Part shown: piece after piece, positions 5,787 through 30,582 of the stretch | How the letters are laid out: every line of letters begins with the position of its first letter | Position numbering within the stretch: position 1 is the first letter of the stretch | From: Acidimicrobiaceae bacterium | GTDB taxonomy: Bacteria > Actinomycetota > Acidimicrobiia > Acidimicrobiales > RAAP-2 | NCBI GenBank assembly: GCA_003169675.1 | Contig: PNAT01000085.1 | Coordinates: 1,038-52,164 of the forward strand | Length of the DNA stretch: 51,127 nt | Reading direction: 5' to 3' | The notes under the pieces: generated by a model | Told to the model about the DNA's origin: nothing | The model's input: only the letters and a program-made list of their open reading frames with translations | The model's database searches: none | Translations under genes and position numbers: made by a program

Positions 5787-7360
5787 CACAACCAACTCGT
5801 GACGTCGGAGGTCCACTGCGCCAGCCAGAACCTGTGGGCCGGGCGGGACCGTGGGTGGGTGGGCATGGAGGGCAGGAAGCGGGCCGCCGGTGCGGTCAAG
5901 CTCGGGACCGAACCGGTCTGCACCGCGAGCTGGACCGAGGCCGGCTGCCCCTGACCGGGAGTGACGTGCTGGGAGAGCAGCCCACCGGAACCACCGGTGG
6001 TGGTGGAACCGCCCGGGCACTTGAGGACGGCCCCAACCAACGTGCAGAGCGGGTTGGGCTTCGTGGTGGTCGTCGTGGGAGGAGTGGGGGCCACCGTGGT
6101 CGAACTGGCGGACTTGCCGTTGGTGGCATTGCCCTTCGGGGCGCCCGATGGGGTGCTGATGGAACCGATCTGAGTGAGACCCTGTTGGAAGAGGGAGGCG
6201 GGCGAGCTCTTCTGGGCACCGGCCAGCGTGGTGAGCAGGGTGGGGATCTGATTGATGATCGGATTGAAGAAGGGGGATTTAGGATTCCCGCAGGACGCCA
6301 GCGCGGTGAGCTGAGCCGAGGTCAGCCCGGCCGAGTGGTTGGCAACAATGCGGCGGCAGACCCCTGCGAGCGCGTCACGGACCAACCCGGCGAACACAGC
6401 GCCGGTCACGCCGGGGGGCGAGGCGGCATTGAGGTCGAGCCAGTTGTAGTGGGGGTCGATAGCGCGTTTGGCGCCCTGGAAGAGGTTGTCGGTCTGGACG
6501 ACGAGCTCGTCCACGCTGGCGATGTTACGATCGAGCGTCCGGCTGACGGTGGTCACCGTCCCCACATCCGCCTCCAGCGGCAACAGGTTCGGCGTCAACA
6601 CCTGCACCAACGCGGTGGAAGCCCCGGTTAGCTGAGTCAGGGCGTCGTTCAACTGGCCCGAGTGCTGGGCGATCACGGTGGAGACGGTGTCGTACTCCTG
6701 CACCAGCTGCTCAATCTGCGACGTTTCCGAGTCAAGGGTCCCGGTCAGCTGGGCCAGGGAACCGTTGAGCTTGCCCAGGTCGTTGCCCTTGTTGGCCAGC
6801 AGCTGCAGGGTGCCGGCGGCCGACGCGATCAGGTGGTTCAGCCCCGCTCCCTGGCCGTCGAGATCCTGGGCCAGGTTGGTGATGACGTCACTGACCGCAT
6901 GGGGATTCAGCTGGTTCAGCGTGCGCTGCAGCTCCTTGAGGAACTGGTCGGTGGAGATGGGGACGGACGTGCGCGATTCGGGAATGGTGGCGCCCGGCGC
7001 CAGATACGGTCCACCGGTGTAACCCGGATTGAGCGCGACGTCCGGTTGACCGAGGACTTGGGGCGCCACCAGGGCGGCCACCACGGACGACGGGATGTGG
7101 GTGGTCGAGTGCACGGCCATGCCGACCTCGACCCGGTCGCCGACGTTTACCACCGATGTCACCGTGCCCACGGGGACGCCCAGCACATCCACCGCCGCTC
7201 CGGGGAAGAGCCCGGGGGCGCTGGCGTAGACGGCATTGATCCGGTAGGTGGAGGGGCCTCGGGTGAAATCGACTGCCGCCACCGCGCCGGCCACCAGGAC
7301 CACACCGGCCAGGGCCAGGCGCAGCACCTTGGAGTGCCAGATGTCGAGCAGCCGGTCCAC
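5786..7360 (-). CDS. mceD: Mce family protein, position D
   Basis: The ORF track extends to 7645, but the upstream part lacks Mce character. A GTG at 7360 overlaps the mceC TAG stop by one base and begins a normal Mce N-terminus: VDRLLDIWHSKVLRLALAG with a membrane anchor. The 524-residue product has the MCE domain (AAVDVLGVPVGTVTSVV), a long helical stretch rich in Gln/Leu/Thr, and a Thr/Pro-rich tail (TTVAPTPPTTTTTKPNP) that is probably an exposed flexible extension. It is the longest Mce protein of the operon. Confidence 0.9.
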   Translation of the reverse strand: MDRLLDIWHSKVLRLALAGVVLVAGAVAAVDFTRGPSTYRINAVYASAPGLFPGAAVDVLGVPVGTVTSVVNVGDRVEVGMAVHSTTHIPSSVVAALVAPQVLGQPDVALNPGYTGGPYLAPGATIPESRTSVPISTDQFLKELQRTLNQLNPHAVSDVITNLAQDLDGQGAGLNHLIASAAGTLQLLANKGNDLGKLNGSLAQLTGTLDSETSQIEQLVQEYDTVSTVIAQHSGQLNDALTQLTGASTALVQVLTPNLLPLEADVGTVTTVSRTLDRNIASVDELVVQTDNLFQGAKRAIDPHYNWLDLNAASPPGVTGAVFAGLVRDALAGVCRRIVANHSAGLTSAQLTALASCGNPKSPFFNPIINQIPTLLTTLAGAQKSSPASLFQQGLTQIGSISTPSGAPKGNATNGKSASSTTVAPTPPTTTTTKPNPLCTLVGAVLKCPGGSTTTGGSGGLLSQHVTPGQGQPASVQLAVQTGSVPSLTAPAARFLPSMPTHPRSRPAHRFWLAQWTSDVTSWL

Positions 7361-17461: not shown

Positions 17462-19783
17462 GTGGTCCCACCGATCTTGACGAGAAGAGAAACCCTGAGG
17501 ATACTGCATACCTTGAGTACGTACCAGGAGGATGCCGGGCCGCCGGCCGACGTCATCGAGCGCGCGCTGCGGAGTCTCTCCCGGGTCACGACCACCCACC
17601 GCAAAGCAATCGTCGTCGCCGCCGGTGTGTTCGTCGTGGTGGCCGCCCTCTTCGGTGGCAACGCCGCCTCACACCTCTCCCAGGGTGGCTTCGACGCACC
17701 ATCCGAGGAGTCGGTCCACGCGGCGAACATCTTGGCCTCGGAATTCCACAACGGATCGGACAACTTCATCCTCCTGGTCCACGCCCGCACCGGATCCGTC
17801 GACAGTGCCGGCGTGGCCGCGGCCGGTCAGGCGCTAACCCGGGAGCTGGCCGCGCAGCCCAATGTGGCCAATGTCGAGTCCTACTGGAGCCTGGACTCGG
17901 TGCCCATCCTGCGCACCTCGGGGCGGACGGACGCACTCGTGGTTGGTCGCATCACCGGTGACCAGAATCAAGTCATGCAGCGCGAGGGCGTCCTCGCCGC
18001 CACCCTGAGCCAACCCCGGGGACCGATCACCGTGCGGGTGGGTGGCTTCGGCCCCGCCTTCCACGAGGTGAACACCGTCGTCGAGCATGACCTCTTGCGG
18101 GCCGAGTCATTTGCCGTTCCCCTCACGCTCCTCCTCCTCCTCGTCGTTTTCGGATCACTGGTCGCTGCCGCCATGCCGCTGACCATCGGTGGCGTGGCGG
18201 TCGTGGGCACGCTGCTCATTTTGCGCCTGCTCAACACCATCACACCGGTCTCCGTGTTCGCAGTGAATCTGACCACCGTGCTCGGGTTGGGCCTGGCCAT
18301 CGACTACAGCCTCTTCATTGTCAGCCGGTTCAGGGAGGAGCTCAACACAGGACGCGACGTGCCCTCAGCACTGGAGGAAACCTTGGCCCATGCCGGGCGC
18401 ACCGTGGCGGGCAGCGCTCTCACGGTGGCCGCCGCGATCAGTGCTCTGCTCGTCTTCCCGCTCATGTTCCTCCGGTCCTTCGCCTTCGCCGGGATCGCCG
18501 TCTCCGCACTAGCCGGGATCGCCGCGCTGGTGGTGCTCCCCGCCGCGCTGGCGCTGCTGGGCCACCGCATCAATTCCCTCACGGTTTGGCATCGGTCGGT
18601 GCGGCCACCAGCAGACGGGTGGTGGTCCAAGGTGGCACGAGGAGTCATGCGTCGCCCGGTGGTGGTCATCGTCGGTGTCCTCGCCCTGCTGGGCGTGTTG
18701 GCCGCTCCGTTTTTGCACATCCACTTGGGTTATCTGGACGACCGGGTTCTGGCCCCGACGAATCAGGTCAGGCAGGTGAACGACACCTTGCGCAGGGACT
18801 TCGGGCAGGGTCAGACCGACGCCCTGCAAGTCGTGGCCCCCCAAGCTGACCAGGTGCCGTTGGCGCAACGAGCGGCCTACGCCTCCCACCTGTCCAATCT
18901 CCCTGGGGTGCTCCGGGTGGATGCAGCGACCGGCGTCTACTTCCGCGGGGTCCGGCTCCCCTCGCCACCGGTCTACGCGGCCCAATTCAACGGTGGGAGC
19001 GGCACCTGGTACTCGGTCATCCCGCAGGGCAACGCGCTGTCCAACGCGGGCGAGCGGTTGGTCCATGTCATTCGGGACGGTCCGGCTCCCTTCGCCATCT
19101 TGGTGGGAGGCCTGCCGGCCGGGTTCGTAGACTCCACGGCGACCATCAGAGAATTCCTCCCCCTGGCCCTCCTGCTGGTGGCCGGGGTGACCTTCTTGCT
19201 TCTCCTTCTTCTCTTTCGGAGCGTGTTCATCCCGCTGAAGGCCCTGGCCCTCAATGTGGTGAGCTTGGCCGCCACCTTCGGGGCCATGGTGTGGGTCTTC
19301 CAGGAAGGCCACTTCTCCAAGTTCCTCGACTTCACTCCCACCGGCGCACTCATTGACACCATGCCGATCTTGATGCTGTGCGTCGCCTTCGGCCTCTCCA
19401 TGGACTACGAGGTCTTCCTGCTGTCGCGCATGAAGGAGCTGCGCGATCAGGGGATGACAAACGATGCAGTGGTGGCCGGCGGGTTGCAGTTGACGGGGCG
19501 GATCATCACGGCGGCAGCGCTGCTTATGAGCATCGTTTTCTTCAGTCTGGTGACGAGTGCCATCGCATTCATGAAGCTCTTCGCCGTCGGACTTACGCTG
19601 GCCGTGCTGCTGGACGCCTTCATCATCCGAGGCCTACTGGTGCCAACCGTCATGAAGGTAGCGGGCGACCGGATCTGGTGGGCGCCCTCGTTCATAAAGA
19701 AGCAGCCGCTGACATCACCATCGGGACAACGGTTCCCGGTCGATCCTTCCGCCACCTCCGAGGACCTCACCTCGGTTCACTGA
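17462..19783 (+). CDS. MMPL/RND-family membrane transporter
   Basis: A 773-residue duplicated RND-type transporter. Each half has one hydrophobic segment, a large extracytoplasmic loop and a block of five more (first block SFAVPLTLLLLLVVFGSLV and GLGLAIDYSLFIVSRFREE; second block FLPLALLLVAGVTFLLLLL and FGLSMDYEVFLLSRMKE). The paired DYS/DYE motifs in the fourth helix of each half are the proton-relay signature. Such proteins export lipids or drugs. The GTG at 17462 leaves only 27 bp to tetR; a TTG at 17513, about 11 nt after TGAGGA, may be the real start. Regulation by the divergent TetR is likely. Confidence 0.92.
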   Translation: MVPPILTRRETLRILHTLSTYQEDAGPPADVIERALRSLSRVTTTHRKAIVVAAGVFVVVAALFGGNAASHLSQGGFDAPSEESVHAANILASEFHNGSDNFILLVHARTGSVDSAGVAAAGQALTRELAAQPNVANVESYWSLDSVPILRTSGRTDALVVGRITGDQNQVMQREGVLAATLSQPRGPITVRVGGFGPAFHEVNTVVEHDLLRAESFAVPLTLLLLLVVFGSLVAAAMPLTIGGVAVVGTLLILRLLNTITPVSVFAVNLTTVLGLGLAIDYSLFIVSRFREELNTGRDVPSALEETLAHAGRTVAGSALTVAAAISALLVFPLMFLRSFAFAGIAVSALAGIAALVVLPAALALLGHRINSLTVWHRSVRPPADGWWSKVARGVMRRPVVVIVGVLALLGVLAAPFLHIHLGYLDDRVLAPTNQVRQVNDTLRRDFGQGQTDALQVVAPQADQVPLAQRAAYASHLSNLPGVLRVDAATGVYFRGVRLPSPPVYAAQFNGGSGTWYSVIPQGNALSNAGERLVHVIRDGPAPFAILVGGLPAGFVDSTATIREFLPLALLLVAGVTFLLLLLLFRSVFIPLKALALNVVSLAATFGAMVWVFQEGHFSKFLDFTPTGALIDTMPILMLCVAFGLSMDYEVFLLSRMKELRDQGMTNDAVVAGGLQLTGRIITAAALLMSIVFFSLVTSAIAFMKLFAVGLTLAVLLDAFIIRGLLVPTVMKVAGDRIWWAPSFIKKQPLTSPSGQRFPVDPSATSEDLTSVH

Positions 19784-19802
19784 GGCATCCTCGGACGTGA
19801 AA

Positions 19803-19835
19803 GAGGGCTGGACCTGAAGTTCCGGTCCAGCCCTC
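19803..19835. terminator. Bidirectional hairpin terminator between MMPL and pilin 1
   Basis: A perfect 12-bp stem, GAGGGCTGGACC with GGTCCAGCCCTC, and a 9-base loop. It lies between the convergent MMPL and pilin genes and can serve both. Its GGGCTGGA core recurs in the terminators of the other pilin genes. Confidence 0.8.
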
Positions 19836-19918
19836 GTCTCACCCATTGGGGTAACGGAGATAGTCCCTGAGGGACTGAAAGCAATCAGACTGCGGCGGCA
19901 ATCACTCGCCGCAGTCGT

Positions 19919-20146
19919 TCAGCAGGATGTGGTGGTCAGACTGCCCACGCACGTGTTGGCGTTGCTGAAGAGCTTCGAAATGCTGCTCCCGAGCAAGGAC
20001 ACCGCAACCACGGCGACGACGGCGATCAGGCCGACCAGGAGTGCGTACTCCACCATGGATGCGCCACGCTCCGTGCGAGCTCGCTCCAAAAGCGTGCCGT
20101 GCATGCCTCGAACCGCGAACAACGCGTTCAGAAAAATCTCGGTCAT
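19919..20146 (-). CDS. flp: Flp/type IVb pilin, copy 1
   Basis: A 75-residue prepilin. The leader ends in TERG; the mature protein begins ASMVEYALLVGLIAVVAVV, so cleavage falls after Gly with Glu at +5 and Tyr at +6, the Flp motif. The C-terminus NANTCVGSLTTTSC carries two cysteines that could form a disulfide loop. The start has GAGAGGGGAACA upstream. Mature protein is identical to copy 3 over nearly all of its length. It should be the structural subunit of the Tad pilus encoded downstream on the map. Confidence 0.95.
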   Translation of the reverse strand: MTEIFLNALFAVRGMHGTLLERARTERGASMVEYALLVGLIAVVAVVAVSLLGSSISKLFSNANTCVGSLTTTSC

Positions 20147-20171
20147 TGATGTTCCCCTCTCCTACCCTGTT

Positions 20172-20195
20172 CAAGAACCGATGATCGGCTTCTTG
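20172..20195 (-). promoter_or_regulatory. Conserved leader hairpin of pilin 1
   Basis: The minus strand folds CAAGAA-G-CCGAT ... ATCGG-TTCTTG, a stem with one bulge, ending 26 nt before the ATG and just before the ribosome-binding site. Pilin 2 has an equivalent hairpin at the same distance with changed bases that keep most pairs. Confidence 0.6.
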
Positions 20196-20231
20196 CTCTT
20201 CCACTACCAGCATCAATCAATTCGATTACTA

Positions 20232-20266
20232 GGTAAATAGGACTTTCGGACTTAATACATTTGCCA
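20232..20266 (-). promoter_or_regulatory. Conserved 35-nt block upstream of pilin 1
   Basis: On the minus strand the block contains TGGCAA, then GTATTAAGTCCGAAAG and a CCTAT..ACC end. It is about 90 percent identical to the block upstream of pilin 2, at the same 86-nt distance from the ATG, while the sequence between block and hairpin has diverged. It is probably the promoter plus a regulator site; it does not fit a standard -35/-10 pair. Confidence 0.6.
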
Positions 20267-20299
20267 AAAGACACTTTGAATTCCTTTATAAATGACAAT

Positions 20300-20329
20300 G
20301 GGCTGGATCGGCGAAAACCGATCCAGCCC
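20300..20329 (-). terminator. Terminator of pilin 2
   Basis: A perfect 12-bp stem, GGGCTGGATCGG with CCGATCCAGCCC, and a CGAAAA loop, downstream of pilin 2 and upstream of the pilin 1 promoter block. It would isolate the two pilin transcripts. Confidence 0.8.
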
Positions 20330-20411
20330 TATCGTCATCCCGAAGGGATGAGGGGGAAACCTCCCTCCGGGAAACCCTTGCTCTTACGTGGCGGTCATGC
20401 ACCGCCGGCGC

Positions 20412-20639
20412 TTAGCAAGAGGTGGTGGTCAGACTACCGACGCAGGTGTTGGCATTACTGAACAGATTCGAGATGCTGTTCCCCAACAGGGACACGGCAA
20501 CCACGGCGACCACGGCGATCAGGCCGACCAGGAGTGCGTACTCCACCATGGAGGCGCCGCGCTCGGTGCGGGCTCGCGTCGACAGCTTGGAGTGCACGCC
20601 GCGCACCGCCATGAACGCACCTATGAATACTCCGGTCAT
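20412..20639 (-). CDS. flp: Flp/type IVb pilin, copy 2
   Basis: The same 75-residue design as copy 1: prepilin site TERG before ASMVEYALLVGLIAVV and C-terminus NANTCVGSLTTTSC. It differs mainly in the leader (MTGVFIGAFMAVRGVHSKL) and a few mature residues (GNSISNLFSN). The leader difference could alter processing or export, while the pilus-forming part is held constant. It has its own upstream block, hairpin and terminator. Confidence 0.95.
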   Translation of the reverse strand: MTGVFIGAFMAVRGVHSKLSTRARTERGASMVEYALLVGLIAVVAVVAVSLLGNSISNLFSNANTCVGSLTTTSC

Positions 20640-20664
20640 TGTTGTTCCCCTCTCCTATCATGTA

Positions 20665-20688
20665 CAAGAACCGAAGATCGGACTCTTG
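20665..20688 (-). promoter_or_regulatory. Conserved leader hairpin of pilin 2
   Basis: The minus strand reads CAAGAGTCCGA-TCT-TCGGTTCTTG, a 24-nt imperfect hairpin exactly 26 nt before the ATG, matching the hairpin of pilin 1 in place and shape. Confidence 0.6.
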
Positions 20689-20724
20689 CTACTTTCTCCC
20701 CAGCTTCTGACATTGTTGGCCCTT

Positions 20725-20759
20725 GGTATATAGGCCTTTCGGACTTAATACTCTTGCCA
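20725..20759 (-). promoter_or_regulatory. Conserved 35-nt block upstream of pilin 2
   Basis: Shares TGGCAA, GTATTAAGTCCGAAAG and CCTAT..ACC with the pilin 1 block at an identical 86-nt distance from the start codon. Confidence 0.6.
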
Positions 20760-20794
20760 CAAGATGATGCGCTTGCCATGGCAAAGATGACATC

Positions 20795-20824
20795 GGGCTG
20801 GATTGGCTCTCACCAATCCAGCCC
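20795..20824 (-). terminator. Terminator of pilin 3
   Basis: A perfect 12-bp stem, GGGCTGGATTGG with CCAATCCAGCCC, and loop CTCTCA; GACAT/ATGTC flanks extend it. The same GGGCTGGA core as the other two pilin terminators points to duplication of the whole cassette. Confidence 0.8.
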
Positions 20825-20908
20825 TCATGTCAACCCCACGGGAAAGGGGGAATCGTTCCCACAGGAAAGTACGGCCCAGGTGTAGCGGCAATTACTCGAC
20901 GCGGACGT

Positions 20909-21136
20909 TCAGCAGGATGTGGTGGTCAGACTGCCCACGCACGTGTTGGCGTTGCTGAAGAGCTTCGAGATGCTGCTCCCGAGTAATGACACCGCAACCA
21001 CGGCGACGACGGCGATCAGGCCGACCAGGAGTGCGTACTCCACCATGGAGGCGCCGCGCTCGGTGCGAGCCCGCTCCAAAAGTGTGCCGTGAAGGCCCCG
21101 AACTGCAAACAGCGCGTGAAGAAACATCTCAGTCAT
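20909..21136 (-). CDS. flp: Flp/type IVb pilin, copy 3
   Basis: 75 residues with prepilin site TERG before ASMVEYALLVGLIAVV; from the mature N-terminus on it appears identical to copy 1, and the leader differs at only a few residues. Unlike copies 1 and 2, its upstream region lacks the 35-nt block and the 24-nt hairpin; only a CAACC/GGTTG stem is seen. The luxR gene ends about 120 nt upstream on the same strand, so read-through from it is possible. Confidence 0.95.
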   Translation of the reverse strand: MTEMFLHALFAVRGLHGTLLERARTERGASMVEYALLVGLIAVVAVVAVSLLGSSISKLFSNANTCVGSLTTTSC

Positions 21137-21257
21137 TGGTATTCCCCTCTCTCAACCAAAAGATGCGAACGGTTGTCCGACCTATTTGGCTTCCCCAATG
21201 GCAGTTTTACAGTCCCGGCCTAGCACTTCCATAGGCTTTAAAGACCATTCGGGTGAG

Positions 21258-21740
21258 CTACTCGATGCTGACAAGTCCCATGATCACGGCTCGCACCAGC
21301 GCATGGGTGCGGTTCGTCACGTCGAGCTTTTGGAAGATGGCAGCCAAGTGATTCTTCGTCGTCTTCGGGCTGATGAAGAGGCGACCGGAGATCTCGTTGT
21401 TGGTGGCACCCTCTGCCAGGAGTTGCAGGACTTCCAACTCGCGCTGGGTGAGCGACCATGGCCCCCATTGATTTTCGGCGCCCTTACCCTGTTCTTCCAC
21501 CGCCGCTCTCGGTGTCGTCGTGGCGTCCTGGCGCTCCGCCGCGACTTCGGGGTGAGTTTCGGCCAGGGCCATCGACCCCTGGACCACCTGCAGACTCTCA
21601 GGCTCTTGGTCGTCCATCATGACTCTCGGACTGGCCACCGACACCTGTGAGTAGTACGTCCATGCCGGCTCACGGCGGCGTTGCGTTGTGTGCGTGTACA
21701 GCGCGCTGTTCCACCTCACCGTCGACGCTGCGTTCCCCAT
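21258..21740 (-). CDS. LuxR-type HTH transcriptional regulator
   Basis: The C-terminal 60 residues are a GerE/LuxR helix-turn-helix: LTQRELEVLQLLAEGATNNE, then SPKTTKNHLAAIFQKLDVTN. The N-terminal 90 residues are low-complexity and match no receiver or autoinducer-binding domain, so the signal is unknown. The ATG at 21740 is preferred to 21824 because GGGGG lies 6 nt upstream, giving 160 residues. Its place between the pilins and the tad operon makes it the natural candidate regulator of pilus genes; this is inference from position. Confidence 0.85.
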   Translation of the reverse strand: MGNAASTVRWNSALYTHTTQRRREPAWTYYSQVSVASPRVMMDDQEPESLQVVQGSMALAETHPEVAAERQDATTTPRAAVEEQGKGAENQWGPWSLTQRELEVLQLLAEGATNNEISGRLFISPKTTKNHLAAIFQKLDVTNRTHALVRAVIMGLVSIE

Positions 21741-21940
21741 GCTTTCCCCCTCAACACGCACCGTCCCAATGTCCGGCGCGCCACTCCCAGCTCCGCAGCT
21801 GTCGAATGCGGCCGCTTCGACCATTGTACGCCCTCAGCAGGGGAGATCCGACGGGAACCTCGATTCCCGGCCATTTACCACCGTCTGGCAATCCTGCTGC
21901 CACCGTCCGTTGTGACCAAGGGGGATACCCCCGGTTCGGG

Positions 21941-22870
21941 CTAGTGCAGGGCGTGGGAGATGGGACCCACCAGGGGACCCAGGACGATGATCATGATGGC
22001 CGGCAGGAAGCAGAAGGCAAGGGGAAACAGGATCTTCACCGGCACCTTGGCGGCCCGCTCCCGGGCCCGCTGGCGCCGCTTGTCGCGCATTTCGTCGGCT
22101 TGAGCCTGGAGGACCCGTCCGATGGGGAGCCCCAGTGCATCTGCCTGCGACAGCACCACCGAGAACGTCACCAGATCATCAATGTCGGTGCGGAGCTTGA
22201 GATTTTCGAGCGCATCATGACGGGACAGCCCGAGTTCCATTTCTCGCAAGGTGAGTCGGAGCTCGTGGCAGACCGCCGACTCGAAGTGCGAGCAGGAGAC
22301 CTGGATGGCTTGCTCAAGCCCCAGGCCGGCCGCCACCGAGATCGTCATGAGGTCGAGCACGTCCGGTAGGGCGTTGGTGACTTCATCCCGGCGGTGCTTG
22401 ATGCGGCGGCGTAACCACATGCTCGGACCCAGGCCGCCCAGGATGGGCAGGAGGAAGAGCATCCCGATGGCAAGCTTCGTTCCCCCAACTCCCGTGGCCA
22501 CCAAGATGACGCCGATGGCGAACCCCATCAAGACGCTGCCCACCTGCAAGGACACGAACTCCTCGGCCCGGACCGAACCGGTGAGCCCTGCCTTGAGAAG
22601 GTCGGCGTGGACGCGGTCGATGTCCCGTGCCGGGTACAGACGGGACAAACCGTGGCGCAATGAGTTCGTTATGGGCCCGAAGAGCCGAGATATCAATGGA
22701 GCCTGTACCCGTTCGGGCACGATTACGGGCTCGGCACCAAATTCGGCGTCGCGGCCAAGGTATCGCATGAACTCGAGCTGGCGTGAGGAATGGTGCGACT
22801 TCCACGCCGCCAGGCCGACTCCGGCCACACCTCCCATCATGAGGACGATGCCCAACACCGGTGTGATCAC
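21941..22870 (-). CDS. tadC: Tad pilus inner-membrane platform protein TadC
   Basis: A 309-residue T2SSF-domain protein: N-terminal membrane segment, cytoplasmic helical domain (DVLDLMTISVAAGLGLEQAI, ETLRE-type LRLTLREMELGLSRHDAL) and two C-terminal membrane segments (VPVKILFPLAFCFLPAIMII). With TadB it forms the platform on which the CpaF ATPase drives pilin insertion. It is the last gene of the operon, about 20 nt after tadB, and starts with GTG. Confidence 0.92.
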   Translation of the reverse strand: MITPVLGIVLMMGGVAGVGLAAWKSHHSSRQLEFMRYLGRDAEFGAEPVIVPERVQAPLISRLFGPITNSLRHGLSRLYPARDIDRVHADLLKAGLTGSVRAEEFVSLQVGSVLMGFAIGVILVATGVGGTKLAIGMLFLLPILGGLGPSMWLRRRIKHRRDEVTNALPDVLDLMTISVAAGLGLEQAIQVSCSHFESAVCHELRLTLREMELGLSRHDALENLKLRTDIDDLVTFSVVLSQADALGLPIGRVLQAQADEMRDKRRQRARERAAKVPVKILFPLAFCFLPAIMIIVLGPLVGPISHALH

Positions 22871-22890
22871 CTCAATTCACCCCTTCCACA

Positions 22891-23888
22891 TCACACATCA
22901 ATGTTCACCATGCGGCGCACGATCCAGAATCCCAAGGCCATGAGTCCGGCGGTGAAGATCAGCACAATGAGCCCGAAGCCGTGGAGCATGGGCGTCAGGT
23001 AGGCGGGATCTTTCGCCTCGAGAGCAAAGAGGAGGAACAGGGGGATGGCAAACAGCACGTACCCTGAGATCCTTCCTTCGGCCGAGAGGGTCTGCACCTC
23101 GCGGCGTACCTCCTGGCGGGTACGCATGAATTCGGCCAAGGTGTGCAGGATCGGACCCAGCCGACCGCCGGTGGACTGTTGGATCCGAACCGCCTCCACG
23201 GCCCACTTGAGATCCTCGACGCCGCAACGGTCGGCCATGCTCTCGAGGGCCAACACCAGATCTGATCCCACCGCGACCTCGGCCATCACCCGGTCAAGCT
23301 CCGCCGACAGCGGCGGCCGCGCGTCGTGGCGGTACATGTCGATGGCCCGTTGAAACGTCTGCCCACCCTCGACCGAGGCCGCCATGAGCGACAGCGCGTC
23401 TGGGAGTTGGGCCTGCAGAAGCTTGGACCGTGCCACGCTTCGCCTCGTCGGCAGATGCCAGGCCACGCCCGCCACCAAGGCAAGGGCGGCAACCGAGCCG
23501 AATGGCGACCCCGTGACGATGCCGACGGTCACCGCCAGCATGATGGCGATACCTACCGTCGCCACCAGGTATTCGCCGGAGCGGAGCGGGATGTCCGCCC
23601 GTTCCAGACGCTTCTCCAGGAGGCCACGGGTGTCGACCCGGCCGAAGACACCAGCGAGGCGGACCGTCAGGGCGGACATCTCACCCCGCTCGGGGGACTC
23701 GCTGACCACCTCGACGGGCACCTTCACCGTTCCCATGGTGTCCTCGAGGATCGCGGCCAGCGAGCGCTGGCGGTTGCGGACCCGCAGGATGGCGGCCGTC
23801 ACGGCGAGGGAGAGCCCGCCGCCGATGAGGACGGCGGCAATGGCCGCATCGATCTGATAGGTGGCGACTCCCAACATCCCCATGGCGT

Positions 23889-23892
<4 letters not shown>
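22891..23892 (-). CDS. tadB: Tad pilus inner-membrane platform protein TadB
   Basis: 333 residues with membrane segments near both ends and a T2SSF domain (LPDALSLMAASVEGGQTFQRA, RIQQSTGGRLGPILHTLAEF). It partners TadC. The ATG overlaps the cpaF stop as ATGA, implying coupled translation. Confidence 0.92.
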
Positions 23893-25393
<1,501 letters not shown>

Positions 25394-25397
<4 letters not shown>

Positions 25398-26680
25398 TGC
25401 GATCCAGTCTTTTCAAGTTCGGGTACCCGGGGGCTGCGGTGCCGGTGCATGAGGCGGCGGAAGCCGCCGGTCTCCTTCGTGCTGCTCGCGCCCAGGGCCG
25501 GCGTCGCCTCACCACCCAAGAATTGGTGCATGCCATCGGACAGCTTCTTGCCGATGTCGGAATTGGCGGCCGACACCAGGGCGGGCTTCCCCTTGTTGAT
25601 GGAGCGGCTGACCTCCCTGGAGTAGGGAAGGATGGAAACGATCCGGTTGTCAAGGACATCCTGGACATCGCTGACATTGATGCCGACGTCGTCCTCGACC
25701 TTGTTGAGCACGACCCCGATGCTGTCGCTGTTGATGCGCAACTTCTCAAGCGTGCTCAAGAACACCCGCATGTTGCGGATGCTGGGGAGATCGAGCGTGA
25801 CCATGCAGAGCACCTTGGTGGAGTGATCAAAGGCCGCCAGCACGACTTCTGAGAGTTGTGACGGGGTGTCCACCACGATGTAGTCGAAGTGCTTGCGCAG
25901 CGCACCCATGACCTTGTAGACGTCTTTGGGTGCGATCATGTCGGCTTCCGCCGGGCTGAAAGGTGCTGCGAGCACCGAGAATCCGAGCTCGTGCTCCTCA
26001 AGGAAGTCCTCCAGATGCTCGTTCAGATCGTCCTCGTCGACGGGCTCTCGAGCGAGCAGGTCGGAGATGGTGAAGCGAGGCCGCAGATGGAGGGCGGTGG
26101 ACACCTCGCCGAATTGGAGGTCCAGGTCGACCAGGCACACCCGTTGCCCGGTCTGGGCGGCCAGGTAGCAGGCCAGGTTGGTGGCATAGAACGTCTTGCC
26201 GCAGCCACCACTCGATGAGGCCACGGTGAACACCTCGGCGAATTGAGGACGCTCCACCACCATCCCGTGAGCCACCACCGGCATCAGGCCGCCGTTGGCC
26301 GGCGCTGAAAGGTCTGAGATGTCGAAGGCACGCTGGAGAGCGGCCGAAAGTTGGCGCTTGCTGGTCGGGTACTCGACCAACTCGATGGCGCCGGTGCGCA
26401 CGATGTCATTCAGGCTGGCCTTAGGTCTGGGGCCGAGCGCCAAGACCGTCGCCGGCACCGGACCCGTGGACCGGAGTTGGGCCAGGCGAGCCATGCCGGC
26501 ATGGCTGTCGAACACCGGACCGGCGACGAGGACATCAAAGGGGCCCAACGCCTGGACCTCTTCCACCACGTCGATCACATTGGTGCTGGTCACTACCTGG
26601 TAGCCCGGCCCCAATGACGCTTGGATGGCCCGGCCCAGTGCGGGTGAGCGCGAGATGACAAGGATCCGGCGGGAGATCAT
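25394..26680 (-). CDS. cpaE: CpaE/TadZ-like P-loop ATPase of the Tad system
   Basis: The start at 26680 (MISRRILVIS) is used because its ATG overlaps the cpaB TGA; the longer frame to 26713 is unlikely. Residues 1-110 are receiver-like but lack a clear phospho-Asp (PFDVLVAGPVFDS). Residues 135-400 are a MinD/ParA-type ATPase. Its P-loop reads SSSGGCGKTFYATNLA, so the signature Lys of the deviant Walker A (KGGxGKT) is Ser here. Later motifs are VCLVDLDLQFGEVS and IVVDTPSQLSEVV. TadZ proteins place the pilus machine at a cell location; the missing Lys suggests altered dimerisation-dependent hydrolysis. Confidence 0.9.
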
Positions 26681-27450
26681 GGCGCTGACGTGGTCTGCGC
26701 CGTGCCGATGCACTGTCCGACGATGGGCGGCAGCGTCCCCTTCTGGGTCTGGACCACGGAAAGGGTCTCATTCTGGGTCAGGAATGTGATCGCTCGCGCC
26801 TGGCCCGGGTTGACGGCCAGAAGAAGCGTCAATGACCCCGGCACCGTTCGGCCGACCGAGCTCGGGTGGCTGCTCAGCGCAGGCACGGTGCTCGATACGT
26901 CGAGCACCTCAATGTTGGACATGGCCAACTCGGTACACGGAAGGGTCACATTGGCCTGAGCCGTACTGGCACCCGTACCAACCGAGAGTTTGGTGATGTT
27001 GGCGTAGACGTCGACTCGGCTGCCGGGCTGCAAGTAGCCGGCGAGACCCTCAACGCCACCCATGGTGACGGTGACTCCATTCATGCCCTGCGGCAGCGAT
27101 ATCGCACTCGTGCTGGGAATGACCTGCGTGGACTGGATGGCATCTCCCTTATGCACTGAAGTCGTCAGGACTTCATCGGTGAGTCCCTGCAGTGACGTGA
27201 GGTCATTGGCCGAATAATTCTTCTGAGATATGAGCTGTATAGAAACCAGACCTTGCGACACCATGGCCTGGCCGGTGGTGCCGATGGGGATGTTGGACGT
27301 GGCCACCAACACCGGCGTGTTGACTGGCGCTGACGAGTTGCCTCCCGATTGGTGCTTGGCCCCCGTCACCACAGTGCCAAAGGCAATGGCTCCTCCCGCA
27401 ACGAACAGGACCACTGCGATCACGACCAGTATGAGCGTCTGCCTCTTCAC
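26677..27450 (-). CDS. cpaB: CpaB/RcpC-type pilus assembly protein
   Basis: 257 residues from the GTG at 27450, which follows GAGGGGG by 8 nt; the frame is open to 27498. One N-terminal membrane segment (LILVVIAVVLFVAGGAIAFG) is followed by an SAF domain (PVLVATSNIPIGTTGQAMV, VHKGDAIQSTQVIP) and an RcpC-like domain (GVTVTMGGVEGLAGYLQPGS, then VDVYANI). It is first in the operon. In diderms CpaB gates the secretin; no secretin is present here, so it probably acts at the cell wall. Confidence 0.9.
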   Translation of the reverse strand: MKRQTLILVVIAVVLFVAGGAIAFGTVVTGAKHQSGGNSSAPVNTPVLVATSNIPIGTTGQAMVSQGLVSIQLISQKNYSANDLTSLQGLTDEVLTTSVHKGDAIQSTQVIPSTSAISLPQGMNGVTVTMGGVEGLAGYLQPGSRVDVYANITKLSVGTGASTAQANVTLPCTELAMSNIEVLDVSSTVPALSSHPSSVGRTVPGSLTLLLAVNPGQARAITFLTQNETLSVVQTQKGTLPPIVGQCIGTAQTTSAP

Positions 27451-27788
27451 AGATCCATCCCCCTCTTGACGCATTGACACGGCATTGATGCAGCACACCT
27501 GCCGGATCTACATTGCGCCCTCGTGGCCGGTTGTCCCCGGGTTCGCTCCATGCGAACGCACCCCGATTTCTCCGGCCTCTTCCCTCTCGGTGGACACTAC
27601 GACGCCAAGGTCCATTGGTACATAGGGCTAATGGATCATTCACCTCACGAGCGCACCTGGTGGGTGGAGCAAATGAGCCGTAATGCCTATGTACGGTCGC
27701 CACGCGCCAGAACACAATCTCCTTGGGAAGAGCCGCAGCGTGTGAAGTAGTCATCATTCCGCCAGCGGCGTCGAGGAGGGAGTCCACA
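27451..27788. promoter_or_regulatory. Divergent promoter region between cpaB and tadE
   Basis: 338 bp without a convincing gene. Both halves of the Tad locus start here, so it must hold two promoters. A GGAGGGAG ribosome-binding site for tadE is at its right end. I see no copy of the 35-nt pilin block and no clear operator. Confidence 0.5.
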
Positions 27789-28325
27789 TTGGGACCACGC
27801 ACACGTGGAGTGCGAGAGCGTCGACGCAAGGCCGATGAATCTGGCGCGGAGACGGTCGAGTTCGCCATCGTCGTGGTCCTGCTCGTCATGCTTGTCTACG
27901 GCATCATCTCATTTGGCCTGATCCTGGGCGGCAAGGTCACGATCACCCAGGCCACCGCCGACGGTGCACGGGCGGGGATCGTGCTCACGACACAATCAGC
28001 TGCGGAGACGGCAGCCGTGACCCAGGCGGCCAACGATCTGGGCTGGCTCGGACTCGGATCTTGCACCTCTGGCACAAAGATGTCCTGCCTGACCAACGGC
28101 ACCACGTGCCCATCGGCATATCAATCCGACGGGGTGTACATGTGCGTCAGCGCGACCGAGGCCGCCTGCGCGTCCAATGCCTCGAACACCTGCCTCAATG
28201 TGGGGCTCACCTACTACTACGCCAACGATCCGCTCTTCCCGGAAGCCCCAGGCCTGAACGTCATCACACCGTCCACCCTGGCGTCCACCTCGACACTGCA
28301 AGTGTCGACCCCCACGTCGTCATGA
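27789..28325 (+). CDS. TadE-like pseudopilin
   Basis: 178 residues from a TTG start that follows GGAGGGAG by about 8 nt; the track start at 27723 lacks such a site. The N-terminus has a pseudopilin cleavage site, ESG before AETVEFAIVVVLLVMLVYGI, with Glu at +5 and Phe at +6. The rest is a secreted domain with six cysteines (for example SCTSGTKMSC). It is a minor pilin of the Tad pilus and overlaps the next gene as ATGA. Confidence 0.88.
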   Translation: MGPRTRGVRERRRKADESGAETVEFAIVVVLLVMLVYGIISFGLILGGKVTITQATADGARAGIVLTTQSAAETAAVTQAANDLGWLGLGSCTSGTKMSCLTNGTTCPSAYQSDGVYMCVSATEAACASNASNTCLNVGLTYYYANDPLFPEAPGLNVITPSTLASTSTLQVSTPTSS

Positions 28326-29911
28326 GATTCGCTTCCTCTCTGCGCCGGTCAAGCCAACGTCGGAGTGACGACGAGCGCGGGGCCACCCTCATCATCGTCG
28401 GCGTCTGCTCGGTTCTCTTCATCTGGGCCGGCGCCTTCGCCGTCGATCTCGGCATCCAAACCGTGGGCAACCGCCAGCTGCAGACAGTTGCCGATGCGGG
28501 TGCACTCGATGCCGCCCGCTACATCTACGTGTCCGGAGCCAATCTCCAGACAGAAGCACAGCGTGGGGCGACCGACAACGGTTCAACTGCCAACATCGCG
28601 GCGGCGCTGGGCTACTGGACGGGGACCCAGTTCCAGCCGCAAGCGGGTCATTGCTCGCTCACCACCCCCTCGGCCTATCCCCCTTGCAATGCGGTGTCGG
28701 TAACCGCAGGGGAACCCGTCCCTGAACTCTTCCATGGCGGGAGTGCCCCGCTCAGCCGTTCCGCCATTGGCGCCATCAACGGACCGCCCTGTCCAGGTGG
28801 TAGCGGAGGTGGTGGTGGAGGTGGTGGTGGAGGTAGTTGGACAGGAGGAGGCATCGCCACGTTCTCCATCGGGACGTATCTGGCCTCGTTCAACACCCAG
28901 CAATCGGCCGTCCTCAACGTGCTCCTGGGAGCACTCGGGACCTCGGCCAACGTCACGGCGGTGGGCTATGCCGGACTGGCCAGCTCCAATGTGACGTTGC
29001 TCCAACTCATCAACGCCTCGGCGGGTGTGCTCACTCCCACCAATATCCTCACCACGTCACTAACTGCGAAACAGTGGGTCGTCCTCTTCGCCACCGTGAC
29101 CGGCAACCCGTACCTCTCTTCCTCCTTCCTGGGCGGAACGGTCAGCGCAGCGACATCGGCGTCCTTGTCGCAAATGGCGTCCATCGATGGATCGACCTGC
29201 TCGAGCGGGTCCCTCTCCTCATCGGCGCTGGCAACCAGCATCAACGTCTTGCAGACGCTCACCACCGAAGCCGAGGTCGCCAACGGAAACAACGTGCTCG
29301 ATGTCACGGCAGCCCTGAGTCTGCCCAACGTGTCGTCCGCCGCACTCGCCCTCAGCCTGATCCAGATTCCACAAGTTGGCTACGGTGCCGTCGGCACCAC
29401 GGTCTCAACGAGCCAGATCAATGCCGACCTGCAACTGACGCTGGGTCTCGGGCTTGGCGTGCTGGACGTTCCGGTCAACGCCGCCCTGGGCACGGCCACC
29501 CTGAAAACAGTCACCTGCGTCAACAACGCCATGACGTCGACCAAGATCAATGCCAGCACGACTGCGGCGTCGGGCACCGTCACCGTTCTCGGCAGCACTC
29601 TGGCCAGCCTGGCCGTCTCGGGGGCCGGACCGAGCCTGCTGGGCTACGGCGCCGCCGTCGTTCCACCGACGGCGTCTACGGCCTCCGCCGACACCAACCC
29701 GATCACCATCGGCACCACCACACCCACGATCTCCTTCAATAACGTCAATAATGGGCTTCTGAACCTGTCCCAACAAGCCGTGGTGGATCCGCTCCTCACC
29801 ACCCTGAGTTCCGCCCTCGGGCCGGTCCTCCAGGCGGCCGGTGTGAATGTGGCGGGCGCCGAGGTGACCGATCTCCATACTCAGTGCGCCGACGTCACCC
29901 TGGTGAATTGA
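28322..29911 (+). CDS. TadG-like pilus-associated protein
   Basis: 529 residues from the ATG overlapping the tadE stop; the track's longer frame is spurious. The N-terminus DERGATLIIVGVCSVLFIWA with AFAVDLG and ADAGALDAARYI is the Flp-pilus-assembly TadE/G-like hallmark. A poly-Gly linker at about residues 158-170 (GSGGGGGGGGGGSW) separates it from a long Ser/Thr/Ala-rich secreted region. It has no Glu at +5 of the RG site, so processing like a pilin is uncertain. Confidence 0.85.
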   Translation: MRFASSLRRSSQRRSDDERGATLIIVGVCSVLFIWAGAFAVDLGIQTVGNRQLQTVADAGALDAARYIYVSGANLQTEAQRGATDNGSTANIAAALGYWTGTQFQPQAGHCSLTTPSAYPPCNAVSVTAGEPVPELFHGGSAPLSRSAIGAINGPPCPGGSGGGGGGGGGGSWTGGGIATFSIGTYLASFNTQQSAVLNVLLGALGTSANVTAVGYAGLASSNVTLLQLINASAGVLTPTNILTTSLTAKQWVVLFATVTGNPYLSSSFLGGTVSAATSASLSQMASIDGSTCSSGSLSSSALATSINVLQTLTTEAEVANGNNVLDVTAALSLPNVSSAALALSLIQIPQVGYGAVGTTVSTSQINADLQLTLGLGLGVLDVPVNAALGTATLKTVTCVNNAMTSTKINASTTAASGTVTVLGSTLASLAVSGAGPSLLGYGAAVVPPTASTASADTNPITIGTTTPTISFNNVNNGLLNLSQQAVVDPLLTTLSSALGPVLQAAGVNVAGAEVTDLHTQCADVTLVN

Positions 29912-30582
29912 GCGCGCATCTGGCCCTCCTCGGAGGCGCCGCCATCGGCATGGCGACCGGAGCCCTCCTGATCCCCTTGACCCGGCGCGAGCTGGCCACC
30001 GCCGTTGCCCGATCGTCGCCAGACACCGCCCCAGCGACGCAGAAGGTGGCCCACTGGCATCGGATCACCCTGGTTGCCGTTTCGGGGCTGCTCCCCGGAA
30101 TCGTCCTCTTCAATGTGGGTTGGTCGATCATTGCCGTGACGCCATTGCTGCTCCTGCTGGGGTTGATCCAGTTGGCCTACTGCGACGTCACTCGGCGCCT
30201 CCTGCCCAAGACCATGGTCTACGCCATCAGTCTGGCTGTGGTGGTCAGCGGCATCGTGATCGCCGGCGTTACCCACGAATGGAAGCGCCTTCTGATGGCG
30301 TCGCTGGGTGCGCTGGGCTTCTTCGTCGTGCTCTTCGTGATGAACCTGGTCAATCCCAAATGGATGGCCTTCGGTGACGTGCGCTTGTCGGCCGCGGTCG
30401 GATTCGGCCTGGCCTGGGTCAGCCCCATGGCCCTGCTGGAAGGATTCTTCCTGGCCAACTTGCTGGCGGCCGTCGTCGGGTTGACCCTCATCGCCGTCCA
30501 CCGGGCGGATCGCCGGTCGGCGCTGCCCTTCGGCTTCTACCTGGCCCTGGGGGCCGGCGTCACCATCCTCGCCTGGAGTTAG
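29884..30582 (+). CDS. Type IV prepilin peptidase (A24 family)
   Basis: A multi-pass membrane aspartyl protease with both catalytic aspartates: CDVTRRLLPK and FGDVRLSAAVG. It lacks the N-terminal methyltransferase/zinc domain of PilD, as is usual for CpaA/TadV-type enzymes. It should cleave the three Flp prepilins and TadE after Gly. The start is uncertain: GTG at 29884 or TTG at 29908, which overlaps the tadG stop. It is convergent with the L,D-transpeptidase gene; their stop codons overlap. Confidence 0.9.
   Translation: MRRRHPGELSAHLALLGGAAIGMATGALLIPLTRRELATAVARSSPDTAPATQKVAHWHRITLVAVSGLLPGIVLFNVGWSIIAVTPLLLLLGLIQLAYCDVTRRLLPKTMVYAISLAVVVSGIVIAGVTHEWKRLLMASLGALGFFVVLFVMNLVNPKWMAFGDVRLSAAVGFGLAWVSPMALLEGFFLANLLAAVVGLTLIAVHRADRRSALPFGFYLALGAGVTILAWS

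Follow-up and report, generated by a model that had tools for sequence, protein, structure and literature searches.

A conserved dyad at pilin and tad promoters of Acidimicrobiales as the predicted operator of a LuxR/NarL-type regulator

Introduction

In Pseudomonas aeruginosa, the flp-rcp-tad locus is controlled by the PprA-PprB two-component system, and PprB directly and positively controls pilus genes (PMC3510237, PMC6821963). In Rubrobacter, pilus genes are served by promoters of the flagellar/WhiG consensus, with TAAA at -35 and GCCGATAA at -10 (PMC8325347). We found no paper in the open-access literature on such control of Tad/Flp pili in the order Acidimicrobiales.

Here we analysed a stretch of 51,127 nucleotides from an Acidimicrobiaceae bacterium (the window), in which a sequence-only reading had pointed out repeated elements upstream of pilin genes. 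As with PprB, a LuxR/NarL-type gene lies inside the tad locus (21258-21824, between tadC and flp). Our comparisons suggest that this is a real, conserved regulatory architecture of a known kind with variant features, in which a LuxR/NarL-type regulator would control a tad locus.

Results

The tad (Flp pilus) locus runs along the minus strand in the order cpaB, cpaE, tadA, tadB, tadC, LuxR/GerE-type regulator and pilins A, B and C, and along the plus strand, divergently from cpaB, as tadE, a Tad/TadG-like gene and a prepilin peptidase. The machinery operon (tadC, tadB, tadA, cpaE and cpaB; 21941-27498, minus) matches T2SSF, T2SSF, T2SSE, CbiA/AAA_31 and RcpC, respectively, the divergent arm (27789-30582, plus) matches PF07811, PF13400 and PF01478, and each pilin (A at 20909-21136, B at 20412-20639 and C at 19919-20146, all minus) matches PF04964 (Flp_Fap). 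The nearest related loci are contigs of two Acidimicrobiaceae bacterium MAGs. Another contig of the window's genome encodes a second, distant TadA-like ATPase (33% identity; C164:48880-50100). Flp pilins are common elsewhere in the order, and the other searched genera of the window's family (genomes G005-G036) gave no pilin match, which could reflect either loss in the family or gain by the window's genus.

When the upstream regions of pilins B and C were aligned gap-free from the ATG, a 35-nt block (TGGCAA...TACC) at -120 to -86 was identical at 31 of 35 positions (89%), with the core GTATTAAGTCCGAAAG at -112 to -97 before both genes. The 36 nt that separate this block from a leader hairpin have diverged to 15 of 36 identical positions (42%) and the 60 nt above it to 28%. 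In a repeat search the block emerges as a repeat of 43 nt with 86% identity, and the exact core occurs just twice in the 3.56-Mb assembly. The sequence-only reading had described a common block and hairpin at equal distances from the two start codons with diverged sequence between them, and all of its coordinates and distances hold for B and C.

The block belongs to a much wider family of sites. We compared 42 sequences, of which 40 were gaps that separate flp from a linked LuxR-type gene (nearly all from Acidimicrobiales, and including that of pilin A) and two were the upstream regions of B and C. Iterative alignment gave a two-fold symmetric dyad, AATGGGCCGAACGGCCTATTCAG, in 39 of the 42 sequences and 37 of the 40 gaps, each call scoring above 99% of the maxima from dinucleotide shuffles; the B/C block is one form of this dyad. 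As a guard against circularity, a held-out profile was rebuilt from 34 sites outside the window's genus. With this profile, the predicted operators in the core of the block score 17.9 at pilin B (20725-20748, minus) and 17.3 at pilin C (20232-20255, minus), values reached by none of 2,000 shuffles in either case. A diverged predicted operator precedes pilin A (21226-21249, minus; held-out score 11.7, p = 0.0015), and the orthologous pilin A sites in the congeners score 18.5 and 18.3. Thus the earlier view that two of the three cassettes share the element was right for B and C but overlooked a diverged copy at A, and the search for conservation in relatives that had been proposed with it finds the dyad across the order.

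The same site, in places that the sequence-only reading had not taken up, also heads both tad operons. The two best profile matches in the window (51 kb) form a divergent pair between cpaB and tadE, with one predicted operator (27672-27695, plus; score 22.8, the best) heading the tadE arm and the other (27617-27640, minus; score 20.3, the second best) heading the cpaB-cpaE-tadA-tadB-tadC-luxR operon. This divergent pair is also present in the congener locus L191. Across 11 tad regions (235 kb, both strands), all scores above 14 fell at tad/flp promoter regions, some of them being the opposite strand of one dyad, and the reversed control gave none. In the tad regions examined outside the window's genus the dyad occurs at flp only, and the wider regulon therefore appears to be genus-specific. 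A genome-wide search of 23 genomes with a strict exact pattern returned 7 matches, 4 of them at flp promoters, compared with 3 in a reversed control; the dyad is not an abundant global site, though the search pattern was strict. Collectively, these comparisons make the block a strong candidate for the operator/promoter of a tad regulon.

Two further dyad-like sites were seen in other genomes. One (L189 in congener G002, 6021-6044, minus; score 25.4) is followed by GCCGACA and lies upstream of the gene for an OmpR-type response regulator, with a WhiG/FliA-type sigma gene in the vicinity; it is a possible extra regulon member in that congener. The other (L200 in G160, 5828-5851, plus) shares its upstream region with the flp dyad, within about 30 nt of it, and is possibly a tandem operator.

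A LuxR/NarL-type gene lies directly before flp in about 40 genomes, a link to the adjacent gene that was likewise absent from the sequence-only reading. The regulator of the window (21258-21824, minus), whose homologues are directly upstream of flp across the order, has a GerE/LuxR helix-turn-helix domain (PF00196, E 2e-20). The recognition helix is near-invariant among these proteins, reading QKTVKNHLASIYQKL in most members and PKTTKNHLAAIFQKL in the window's genus. The receiver domain is absent from this protein and from that of one congener, and present in two homologues tested elsewhere in the order. No partner histidine kinase gene was noticed in the window's tad locus. Among flp loci from a pilin search, 13 had both dyad and regulator, 1 the regulator only, 6 the dyad only (the regulator being absent within the stretch examined) and 28 neither, a co-occurrence with Fisher p = 2e-6, uncorrected for ancestry. 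Outside the order, Nocardioides jejuensis has in a row a kinase-like gene (a call read from sequence), a NarL-type regulator gene, the dyad, CCCGATAG and flp. The protein encoded at 21258-21824 is therefore the likely, though predicted, reader of the dyad.

Downstream of the 24-mer, CGAT (within GCCGATA) occurs at an offset of 15-17 in 28 of 38 sites, compared with 1.3% of shuffles at offsets 13-17. The conserved spacing, as these alignments indicate, is that from the dyad to a -10-like element, not that from the dyad to the ATG, which ranges from 27 to 133 nt in other flp genes. A fixed distance to the ATG was ruled out as a selected feature by this wide variation in relatives, and the equal distances at B and C are explained by their being paralogues. 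The earlier proposal that promoter position is under selection thus survives in altered form: order-wide conservation and fixed placement relative to GCCGATA strongly support the block as a putative promoter element under selection, but its distance to the ATG varies among relatives. The observation that the block fits no standard promoter pair was borne out; a sigma-70-type pair was sought at the block and ruled out, with no match found.

GCCGATA resembles a WhiG/sigma28 -10, whereas the -35 columns are TTCA-like and part of the dyad rather than the TAAA of WhiG/sigma28 promoters. Members of the window's genus have a diverged -10, and pilins B and C have no CGAT at that place. A WhiG/FliA gene scored over the cut-off in 29 of 43 genomes, including congeners G002 and G003; a search of the window's assembly (90.7% complete) gave no WhiG-class gene, and one genome (G202) has CGAT without a WhiG-class match. 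WhiG as a firm sigma assignment for the window was accordingly ruled out, given a genus without GCCGATA and no WhiG-class gene in the 90.7% complete assembly; for the order WhiG is a candidate.

Some stem-loops in the 5' leader stabilise abundant bacterial mRNAs, for example that of ompA. At the window's pilins, a 24-nt hairpin occupies -49 to -26 of B (20665-20688, minus; dG -12.4, local-structure p = 0.06) and C (20172-20195, minus; dG -10.4, p = 0.08), with 21 of 24 positions identical, and pilin A has a leader hairpin of sequence unrelated to these (21154-21191, minus; dG -16.8 for the -60 to -1 fold, p = 0.07). In A, B, C and both congeners a stem-loop lies just upstream of the Shine-Dalgarno region, and apart from B versus C their sequences are unrelated. 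Over 37 leaders, local hairpin energy compared with shuffles gave a mean z of -1.29, with p < 0.2 in 26, whereas control ORF starts had a mean z of -0.18 and 22% below p = 0.2. All 20 family averages were more structured than shuffles (z negative at trims 0 and 18), with means over four trims between -1.23 and -1.52. Folding of whole leaders with unlimited pairing distance gave a mean z of -0.69 and, for the window's leaders, z of -0.3 to -0.7 (not significant); the local-hairpin measure was used because this first measure was weak for the window, and, having been picked after it, calls for caution and was checked with four trims. These folding statistics support the suggested leader structure as a feature that recurs in 20 families.

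Evidence for a particular fold is slighter. Between B and C, 2 of 22 paired and 12 of 25 unpaired leader positions are substituted, and within the hairpin one A-U pair has become G-U, the other changes lying in the bulge, the loop and a marginal outer pair. Hairpin changes do keep most pairs, as had been noted, but one A-U to G-U change with no two-sided change is a weak sign. The covariation check that had been proposed, run on the leader hairpins of close relatives, did not bear out covariation: neither B versus C nor the other close pairs of leaders have two-sided compensatory changes. No Rfam family reaches its gathering score in 19700-21900. Around the start codon, the predicted pairing falls below that of shuffles. 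The evidence supports a recurring leader structure, not a specific regulatory fold. Translational control stays a conjecture, because leader sequence is unconserved and two-sided compensatory changes are lacking; the low pairing at the start codon favours a protective or spacing role over masking of the ribosome site, and mRNA protection is at least as likely a role as translational control.

Each pilin is followed by a near-identical GGGCTGG...CCAGCCC hairpin, a pattern found three times in the window against 0.01 expected: after A at 20795-20824, after B at 20300-20329 and after C at 19805-19833, the last common to a convergent MMPL gene. Read directly, the stems differ by compensated changes, with a C-G pair in B where A has T-A, and these hairpins are probably terminators. 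A like stem follows flp in both congeners. The cassettes repeat at 493-497 nt, and since each has an operator, a leader and a terminator, the three pilins look like independent transcription units. Coding identity is 210/228 for A-C, 184 for B-C and 180 for A-B; cassette C is thus closest to A in its coding sequence and closest to B in its promoter and leader. This suggests a mosaic, which may have arisen by recombination or gene conversion between pilin copies.

Discussion

We think it probable that the block is the operator/promoter core of a tad regulon, read by a dimer of the LuxR/NarL-type regulator. The regulator, whose gene is the last of the tad operon, would bind the 18-24-bp dyad AATGGGCCGAACGGCCTATTCAG, and because the dyad overlaps the -35 region, we propose that it recruits RNA polymerase, activating rather than repressing transcription, to a -10 that follows the 24-mer at a distance of about 14 nt. 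Across most of the order that -10 would be the WhiG/sigma28-type GCCGATA, and in the window's genus a diverged form. Each pilin would have its own cassette, with an operator, a leader hairpin and a ribosome site before flp and a terminator after it. Three promoters would feed pilin and one each the two machinery arms, a ratio from which we infer coordinated control with pilin in excess. Judged from the position of the -10, the mRNA would start near -58. This would place the whole hairpin within the leader, immediately before the Shine-Dalgarno region, where its most likely role is to protect the 5' end while the ribosome site stays accessible.

There is a minor chance that some other regulator, activator or repressor, reads the dyad and that the adjacent LuxR-type gene is linked to it for other reasons. 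Six flp loci have the dyad with no LuxR-type gene nearby, and the recognition helix in the window (PKTTKNHLAAIFQKL) differs from that of the order, as such a regulator would allow; it would have to be squared, however, with linkage in about 40 genomes, the co-occurrence of dyad and regulator, a two-fold symmetry that fits a LuxR-type dimer and the return of the pairing in Nocardioides. Hardly credible is the idea that the similarity of B and C is a mere residue of recent cassette duplication, with block and hairpin functionless. B and C are indeed paralogues with their elements at equal distances and cassettes spaced at 493-497 nt, but flanking and intervening sequence has fallen to 28-42% identity with the block still at 89%, and for the block this explanation is contradicted by the match of its core to a profile from other genera.

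The hairpin invites two other interpretations. A translational switch that governs how ribosomes reach the pilin start, possibly together with a protein or small RNA, could account for a hairpin immediately before the Shine-Dalgarno region at each of the three pilins and for leader structure that recurs across families; we judge it unlikely, as hairpin sequence is unconserved between families, no Rfam family reaches gathering and pairing at the start codon lies below that of shuffles, unlike a mask over the start. That the hairpin is instead a DNA palindrome serving as a second operator seems very unlikely: the near-perfect inverted repeat is kept between B and C, but pilin A and relatives have hairpins of unrelated sequence at a similar place, which is not how a binding site would behave. 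A regulator-read dyad followed by a protective leader stem-loop is the arrangement we prefer.

The analysis offers a predicted operator and regulator, with a predicted promoter architecture, for the Tad/Flp pili of an order that is largely uncultured. It opens the control of surface attachment in these bacteria to testing, supplies a sequence signature by which metagenomes can be searched for the regulon, and adds a comparative example in which the shape of a leader structure recurs and its sequence does not. A bolder reading, which we offer tentatively, is that these sites may represent an undescribed class of pilus promoter, spread throughout Acidimicrobiales, that is of WhiG type but has a LuxR/NarL-type dyad in place of its -35 and could join two-component input to a sigma factor that is c-di-GMP-controlled in other actinobacteria. 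The window's lineage might then have lost the receiver domain while carrying the operator at each of its three pilin cassettes and on both tad arms, and leader hairpins that have retained their shape but not their sequence might set the lifetime of pilin mRNA.

Set beside described systems, the locus combines familiar parts in its own way. Like ompA-type leaders, those of the pilins have a short stem-loop near the predicted 5' end and a free ribosome site downstream in the mRNA of an abundant surface protein; unlike them, they have no common hairpin sequence and are known from folding statistics alone. The WhiG/FliA (sigma28-type) promoters of Rubrobacter and Actinoplanes (PMC8325347) are likewise actinobacterial pilus promoters, with GCCGATAA at -10 there and GCCGATA in the order-wide flp promoters here. 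They differ in having TAAA at -35, where the flp promoters have a TTCA-like dyad end, and the pili here are Tad/Flp pili, the window's genus is without GCCGATA and WhiG dependence is putative. PprB of P. aeruginosa (PMC3510237, PMC6821963) is similarly a NarL/LuxR-family regulator encoded within a tad locus with several promoters. It belongs to another phylum and acts at another promoter type, its reported 9-nt site is shorter than the dyad, the window's regulator is without a receiver domain and activation is a prediction here; we regard PprB as a functional parallel of the candidate regulator.
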